In this document: one piece after another, positions 39,474 to 40,169 of the stretch
Position numbering within the stretch: position 1 is the first letter of the stretch
How the letters are laid out: every line of letters begins with the position of its first letter
Assembly: GCA_020854115.1 (NCBI GenBank)
Contig: JADZGC010000013.1
Coordinates: forward strand, 1 to 40,169
Direction: 5' to 3'
Source: a bacterium
GTDB taxonomy: Bacteria; Patescibacteriota; Saccharimonadia; CAILAD01; GCA-016700035
Length of the DNA: 40,169 nt
Translations under genes and position numbers: made by a program
Notes under the pieces: model-generated
What the model saw: the letters and a program-made list of their open reading frames with translations, nothing else
What the model was told of the DNA's origin: nothing
Database searches by the model: none

Positions 39474-39503
39474 TTGACGCCCTATCTGGTATAAGGGTAT
39501 AAT
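39474..39503 (+). promoter_or_regulatory. tRNA-Asn promoter
   Basis: TTGACG (39474-39479), an 18-bp spacer and TATAAT (39498-39503). The tRNA begins 44 nt further on, so the precursor has a roughly 37-nt 5' leader. Confidence 0.75.
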
Positions 39504-39581
39504 TGCGTGGTCTTTTGGCGAATGCGCCCGAAGAAGTAAATACATAATCCGGGGTAGCTCAGCGGTAGAGCAGTTGGCTGT

Positions 39582-40128
39582 ACGATACACCACTGGTATA
39601 CAGTAATATGTATGCCAGATCGTCGAACATATGCAGATCGTGCTGATTATTTGAAGCAAGCTGTGTCGAAGCGTCGAAAGACAATTCGCTCAAGACTCAT
39701 TCAATATAAAGGCGGTAAATGTTCTCGCTGTGGATATGATAGATGTATAGAGGCCCTAGAATTGCATCACAGAGATTCTTCAAAGAAAGACTTCGGGCTT
39801 TTAGCTCATGGGCTTACGCGTGCGTGGGAAAAAGTAAAAGCCGAAGCAGACAAATGTGATCTTCTCTGTGCTAATTGCCATCGTGAAATCCATAGCAAAG
39901 TGCAGCCTACTTGAGTACTCAAGTAGTGAACATAGGGTTAATTGCGGGAAGCCTAAACTTGCTAATGTAGGTATGGTAATCCGCAGCCAAGCCGAGGGTG
40001 GGATAAAGGTCTTCGGAAGGTTCAGAGACTAGAAGGTGAGCCCAACAATAATCCTTCAAACAGCGCCCTACATCCGTTTTATCGGATGATGAGATAGTCC
40101 ACTCTTACGCGAAAGCGCGAGGTAGGTG
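39582..40128 (+). ncRNA. Self-splicing group I intron in tRNA-Asn
   Basis: A 547-nt intron ending in G, as group I introns do. P1 is clear: exon GGCTGT (39576-39581) pairs with the guide GCAGCC (39902-39907), ending in the required U-G wobble at the 5' splice site. P3 is GGGTT with AGCCC. P4 is TGCGG with CCGCA. P7 is GACTA (40027-40031) with TAGTC (40095-40099), inside the conserved TTCAGAGACTAGA and GAGATAGTCC blocks. A GAAA-capped hairpin (about 40108-40117) fits P9. The order resembles the compact tRNA introns of Azoarcus and cyanobacteria (IC3-like). The HNH ORF occupies the P1 loop. A perfect 20-nt palindrome at 39907-39926 is probably P2. Confidence 0.93.
39612..39914 (+). CDS. Intron-encoded HNH homing endonuclease
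   Basis: A 100-residue HNH nuclease. After a basic helical N-terminus come the zinc knuckle C37SRC40, the ELHHRD core (His52-His53) and C86ANC89HREIH, the usual HNH layout with two CxxC pairs. Such enzymes cut intronless alleles so that the intron is copied in by repair. The ORF lies inside the P1 loop. Its codons 97-99 (Val-Gln-Pro) include the internal guide sequence, and its TGA lies in the following palindrome, so protein and ribozyme share bases. No good ribosome site is visible. Confidence 0.92.
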   Translation: MPDRRTYADRADYLKQAVSKRRKTIRSRLIQYKGGKCSRCGYDRCIEALELHHRDSSKKDFGLLAHGLTRAWEKVKAEADKCDLLCANCHREIHSKVQPT

Positions 40129-40169
40129 TAACCAATTGGTCGCCGGTTCGAATCCGGCCCCCGGAGCCA

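Follow-up and report, generated by a model that had tools for sequence, protein, structure and literature searches.

Group I introns of bacterial tRNA genes are known in tRNA-Leu(UAA), tRNA-Arg(CCU), tRNA-Ile(CAU), and tRNA-fMet (PMC3984707, PMC4033280, PMC8450103). Like the element described here, these introns lie in the anticodon loop of essential tRNAs and some carry endonuclease ORFs, but they occupy other tRNAs and positions, whereas our intron splits tRNA-Asn(GUU) between anticodon bases 35 and 36 and holds an HNH-like ORF in its P1 loop. CPR tRNAs with group I introns have been mentioned (PMC8172020), and, within the same phylum, essential rRNA genes of CPR bacteria also host group I introns with homing endonucleases (PMC11270868), although rRNA and LAGLIDADG proteins there take the place of tRNA-Asn and HNH. 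As of 2014, the only phage introns on record were in protein genes (PMC3984707), and a 2018 survey placed all the group I introns it found in archaea in rRNA genes (PMC6125680). In collaborative homing, an intron shields its host gene against a neighboring endonuclease; in the F-CphI/psbA intron of cyanophages, a free-standing endonuclease sits beside an intron-bearing target (PMC6083498). Three loci described below (L221, L224, and L233) resemble that arrangement, but F-CphI is an Endo VII-type enzyme with a phage protein-coding target, and the tRNA-Asn system also has an embedded state. Phage T4 SegB, a homing endonuclease (cited in PMC10448857), is likewise encoded in a tRNA region and drives inheritance of that phage region, but no intron is involved and the enzyme is not known to belong to the same family. 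Our literature search found no paper on a group I intron in bacterial tRNA-Asn or on an HNH association with it; a 2025 preprint by Nakagawa et al. ("A Novel Insertion Site...", 10.1101/2025.07.03.662931) may cover the site. The intron is a known kind of element at a site that we did not find described, and what is most likely new to the literature is the association of an HNH family with tRNA-Asn in three arrangements.

The window, by which we mean the whole 40,169-nt stretch of DNA analyzed, is a complete contig and comes from a member of the Saccharimonadia (phylum Patescibacteriota) and contains the two halves of a tRNA-Asn(GUU) gene separated by 547 nt (Table 1). The initial annotation had placed the insertion at 35/36 with a single possible junction, and this held: T39581/T40129 is the sole position pair that rebuilds tRNA-Asn from both halves, and ARAGORN reads the joined exons as a 75-nt tRNA-Asn(gtt) with all stems. 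At the unspliced locus ARAGORN calls no tRNA, and the program therefore overlooks the gene in its unspliced form. Upstream lies a sigma-70-like promoter match, which is suggestive only, as ∼0.9 such matches are expected by chance in the region. The contig stops exactly on the encoded CCA of the tRNA.

Table 1. Coordinates of features at the split tRNA-Asn locus (window numbering)
Feature	Position	Strand	Evidence or remark
Sigma-70-like promoter match (suggestive only), TTGACG-18-TATAAT	39474–39503	+	11/12 consensus positions
5′ exon of tRNA-Asn(GUU), up to and including anticodon base 35	39548–39581	+	ARAGORN on joined exons
P1 5′ strand GGCUGU, U39581 in U-G pair	39576–39581	+	Pairs with 39902–39907; folds once ORF is removed
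Group I intron, 547 nt, final G	39582–40128	+	RF00028, 80.2 bits; unique junction
HNH-like ORF, 100 aa, in P1 loop; end overlaps P1 3′ strand and P2	39612–39914	+	PHROG 2255, E 4.1e-27; guide in frame within ORF
RF00028 match extent; initial part poorly aligned, over ORF sequence	39858–40121	+	Covariance model
Internal guide sequence GCAGCC (P1 3′ strand)	39902–39907	+	GCAGC guide also in relatives
P2 hairpin	39908–39925	+	Compensatory changes in 6/6 P2 pairs counted in alignment
P3 5′ strand (partner 40065–40070)	39933–39938	+	Compensatory changes in 3/6 pairs
P7 5′ strand GACUA (partner UAGUC, 40095–40099)	40027–40031	+	Paired in 100% of cells; one relative has GGCCA/UGGUC
P9 hairpin, GAAA loop	40102–40123	+	Compensatory changes in 6/7 pairs
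Terminal G of intron	40128	+	G in all HNH-bearing split tRNA-Asn relatives, though search did not require G
3′ exon of tRNA-Asn(GUU), anticodon base 36 to encoded CCA	40129–40169	+	ARAGORN on joined exons

The group I core proposed from the letters of the sequence was borne out by a search with the Rfam covariance model RF00028 (Intron_gpI), which gave a full-model match of 80.2 bits (E value of 5.5e-19; gathering score, 50 bits), the only one in the whole genome. P3, P4-P6, P7, P8, and P9 are all present, and the intron ends in G40128, as had been proposed. We measured helix covariation on an alignment of 14 related intron cores. Across the 46 pairs of helices P2 to P9, 95.3% of cells were paired, compared to 31 to 47% in slid controls, and 30 of these pairs showed compensatory changes. 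For P7 this was the case in one of five pairs, with GACUA/UAGUC replaced by GGCCA/UGGUC in a single relative.

P1 was found as it had been annotated, with six pairs and a U-G wobble at the splice site; when the ORF is excised in folding, the helix extends to eight pairs and P2 follows directly. We looked among the relatives for P1 changing in step with the variable anticodon stem and saw no such pattern: the guide is fixed, and some relatives form only four or five pairs. The conserved loop sequence CUGU/UAA (insertion at the slash) seems to determine where the intron inserts. By eye, no clear P10 pairing with the 3′ exon was visible beside the guide. An alternative P1 close to the 5′ splice site, pairing CUGU with ACAG at 39600, was rejected because it lacks the U-G pair and relatives have the guide GCAGC after the ORF. 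A protein-spliced (BHB) tRNA intron of archaeal type was likewise discarded, since the insert holds a full group I core.

To survey the site, we used a DNA pattern that picks up tRNA-Asn 3′ halves without their own 5′ half before them, and a script then sought the 5′ half upstream. In the scan of named genomes, at least 34 other genomes carried inserts of 184 to 630 nt at position 35/36 of tRNA-Asn. The hosts among the matches listed span many Patescibacteria lineages, Omnitrophota, cyanobacteria (Microcoleus, Tychonema, Hormoscilla, and an Oscillatoriaceae), and one Pacearchaeota archaeon, and RF00028 was confirmed at the split locus in 14 of the 15 loci checked. Among 380 sampled genomes of the phylum, at least 24 split tRNA-Asn genes were verified, evenly divided between those with (12) and without (12) an HNH ORF. 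Viral contigs contributed nine loci with split tRNA-Asn and the same guide, GCAGC, that is common to relatives of the window intron. The initial annotation had implied that an ORF-bearing tRNA-Asn(GUU) intron is a rarity; given this spread over phylum genomes, cyanobacteria, Omnitrophota, viral contigs, and one DPANN archaeon, that view does not hold. In a tree of intron cores, the nearest to the window intron are one Saccharibacteria intron and ORF-less introns of its own class, a placement by which the host would also probably be a saccharibacterium.

The archaeal member (L068, positions 929 to 1351) is a group I intron in a Pacearchaeota tRNA-Asn that scores 78.8 bits and contains a truncated HNH ORF. 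Its contig neighbors are archaeal, namely TYW3 and a KH protein closest to arCOG04150, the latter just under the model cut-off. Archaeal splits of 14 to 46 nt were set aside as presumed protein-spliced introns. A 578-nt split in a Diapherotrites tRNA-Asn (L065) was excluded because an RF00028 match was absent; by eye, this insert holds a 184-aa LAGLIDADG-like ORF.

The product of the window ORF matched phage HNH endonuclease families, PHROG 2255 and further ones. With the Pfam HNH model it fell under the cut-off, while the best relative reached an E value of 2.6e-4. A sequence search of the PDB gave weak nuclease matches alone, and a structure model (pLDDT 79) had its best PDB fold matches among Endo VII/HNH nucleases, although these were weak (E of 0.1 or worse). 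The ORF is intact and keeps the Cys, His, and Asn-His residues that are conserved in the family. In ORF-less introns the guide is found +5 to +36 from the splice site, but in the HNH-bearing introns of the phylum it is found at +312 to +354. Since the guide is far downstream only when the ORF is present, the ORF sits in the P1 loop. Each of the 26 HNH-bearing introns examined has its guide within the ORF; 24 of them keep it in a common frame, in which it is translated into a conserved tail, Q-L-P or Q-P. Free-standing homologues end without that tail. On strongly supported branches of the intron-core tree, ORF presence changes at least seven times by gain or loss. The HNH protein tree is weakly supported and does not separate movement of the HNH gene into the intron from movement out of it.

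We searched the 380 phylum genomes with an alignment of the intron ORFs and inspected the surroundings of each homologue. All 35 close homologues, including that of the window, are at tRNA-Asn. The large majority (29) lie inside an intron at 35/36, three of them truncated or disrupted (L232, L234, and L235). Three others (L221, L224, and L233) sit a short distance upstream of a tRNA-Asn whose intron lacks an ORF, and the remaining three, one of them a remnant (L246), are in the same position relative to an intact tRNA-Asn (L217 and L231 being the other two). A free-standing HNH gene beside an intact tRNA-Asn must be inactive, spare its own tRNA gene, or be kept in check by other means. Viral relatives at 82 loci formed 32 clusters at 75% identity, of which 30 had a tRNA in the stretch examined. 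The nearest tRNA was tRNA-Asn in 19 of these 30, whereas the tRNA content of those loci would predict 4.9. Two further viral clusters adjoin a split tRNA-Asn (L315 and L324), and the L315 intron scores above the Rfam threshold; an HNH gene was close by at the viral split tRNA-Asn loci L315, L324, L357, L413, and L418.

Taken together, the locus is best explained as, and very probably is, a mobile group I intron with an HNH homing endonuclease dedicated to tRNA-Asn; this reading draws on sequence comparison, and splicing, cleavage, and homing are steps that we infer. The precursor would be transcribed and the intron would fold, with U35 positioned in P1 through pairing to the guide GCAGCC. Guanosine would then attack after U35, and exon joining would give a mature tRNA-Asn with its anticodon restored. 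The HNH-like protein would most likely cut intronless tRNA-Asn genes near 35/36, and repair from an intron-bearing copy would install the intron, which would then hide the target and protect its carrier. The overall picture points to a selfish element specialized on one essential gene.

The alternative that survives best, though we still regard it as unlikely, is that the intron splices but the HNH protein no longer works as a homing endonuclease, being worn out or having taken another role such as a splicing aid, and that the intron is mainly inherited vertically. This would fit homologues that are truncated or contain stops (L068, L094, L234, and L235), the absence of the ORF from the other seven verified introns of the class, and the position of the window core closest to those of its class-mates. 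Set against this are the intact window ORF with its conserved residues, the conservation of the protein sequence over distant hosts, and the tracking of tRNA-Asn by homologues in phages too. As the window has the sole ORF-bearing intron among the eight verified split genes of the class, recent mobility here is only a possibility.

A distinctly less probable reading of the HNH data is that the family has a general preference for tRNA clusters and does not target tRNA-Asn. The phage relatives do sit in tRNA arrays, and more distant HNH proteins adjoin tRNA-Cys, tRNA-Trp, and tRNA-Pro. However, the Patescibacteria homologues are at tRNA-Asn without exception and mostly within its anticodon, and the excess of tRNA-Asn in the phage clusters was computed against the tRNAs of the same loci. 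We lean toward the view that phages, Patescibacteria, other bacteria, and DPANN archaea share a circulating HNH family specialized on tRNA-Asn, which takes three arrangements: beside an intact gene, beside an intron-bearing gene, and within the P1 loop, where its last codons also serve as the guide. If this is true, a single gene would show in nature the steps that join an endonuclease and a ribozyme into a mobile intron. With one endonuclease family found at one target as a free-standing, an adjacent, and an embedded gene, it becomes possible to test in what order mobile introns arise.

The initial annotation had also raised the possibility that the ORF-bearing host gene is the sole tRNA-Asn, and the genome-wide search agrees. 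The genome (790 kb in 21 contigs) is 99.5% complete; no second tRNA-Asn was found in the assembly, and the remaining tRNA genes cover the other 19 amino acids. In a survey of 117 genomes of the class, a split tRNA-Asn was verified in 8 and the intact pattern was found in 81; 7 of the 8 genomes with a verified split lacked a hit for the intact pattern. Across the phylum sample, just two genomes (G258 and G261) matched both the split pattern, as candidate splits, and the strict intact pattern; the latter misses many real genes, such that its 87 matches in 380 genomes are not a prevalence. Because few genomes match both patterns, the split copy is normally the sole tRNA-Asn found. That the split gene is a dead tRNA, with Asn codons read by another tRNA absent from the assembly, could be argued from the number of contigs and from a contig that terminates exactly at the tRNA, but we judge this very improbable because no second tRNA-Asn was found in a nearly complete genome with tRNAs for all other amino acids, and also in view of the intact exons and intron core and the same lack of an intact pattern match in most class genomes with the split gene. 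With an essential and apparently single-copy tRNA resting on a ribozyme, all Asn decoding in this organism would depend on splicing.

In this phylum, endonuclease genes may adjoin tRNA genes more generally. In three genomes of the window's class (G364, G289, and G315; loci L241, L243, and L247), a more distant HNH ORF lies tail to tail with tRNA-Cys(GCA), its end within ∼0 to 10 nt of the tRNA 3′ end, and other such ORFs extend over the 5′ end of a tRNA-Trp (L240 and L242) or tRNA-Pro (L245) gene. Separately, contig C16 of genome G000 has a run of three tRNAs at 39602 to 39942, comprising a second tRNA-Phe, an odd tRNA-Cys(aca), and an unassigned tRNA, which possibly derives from a mobile element.
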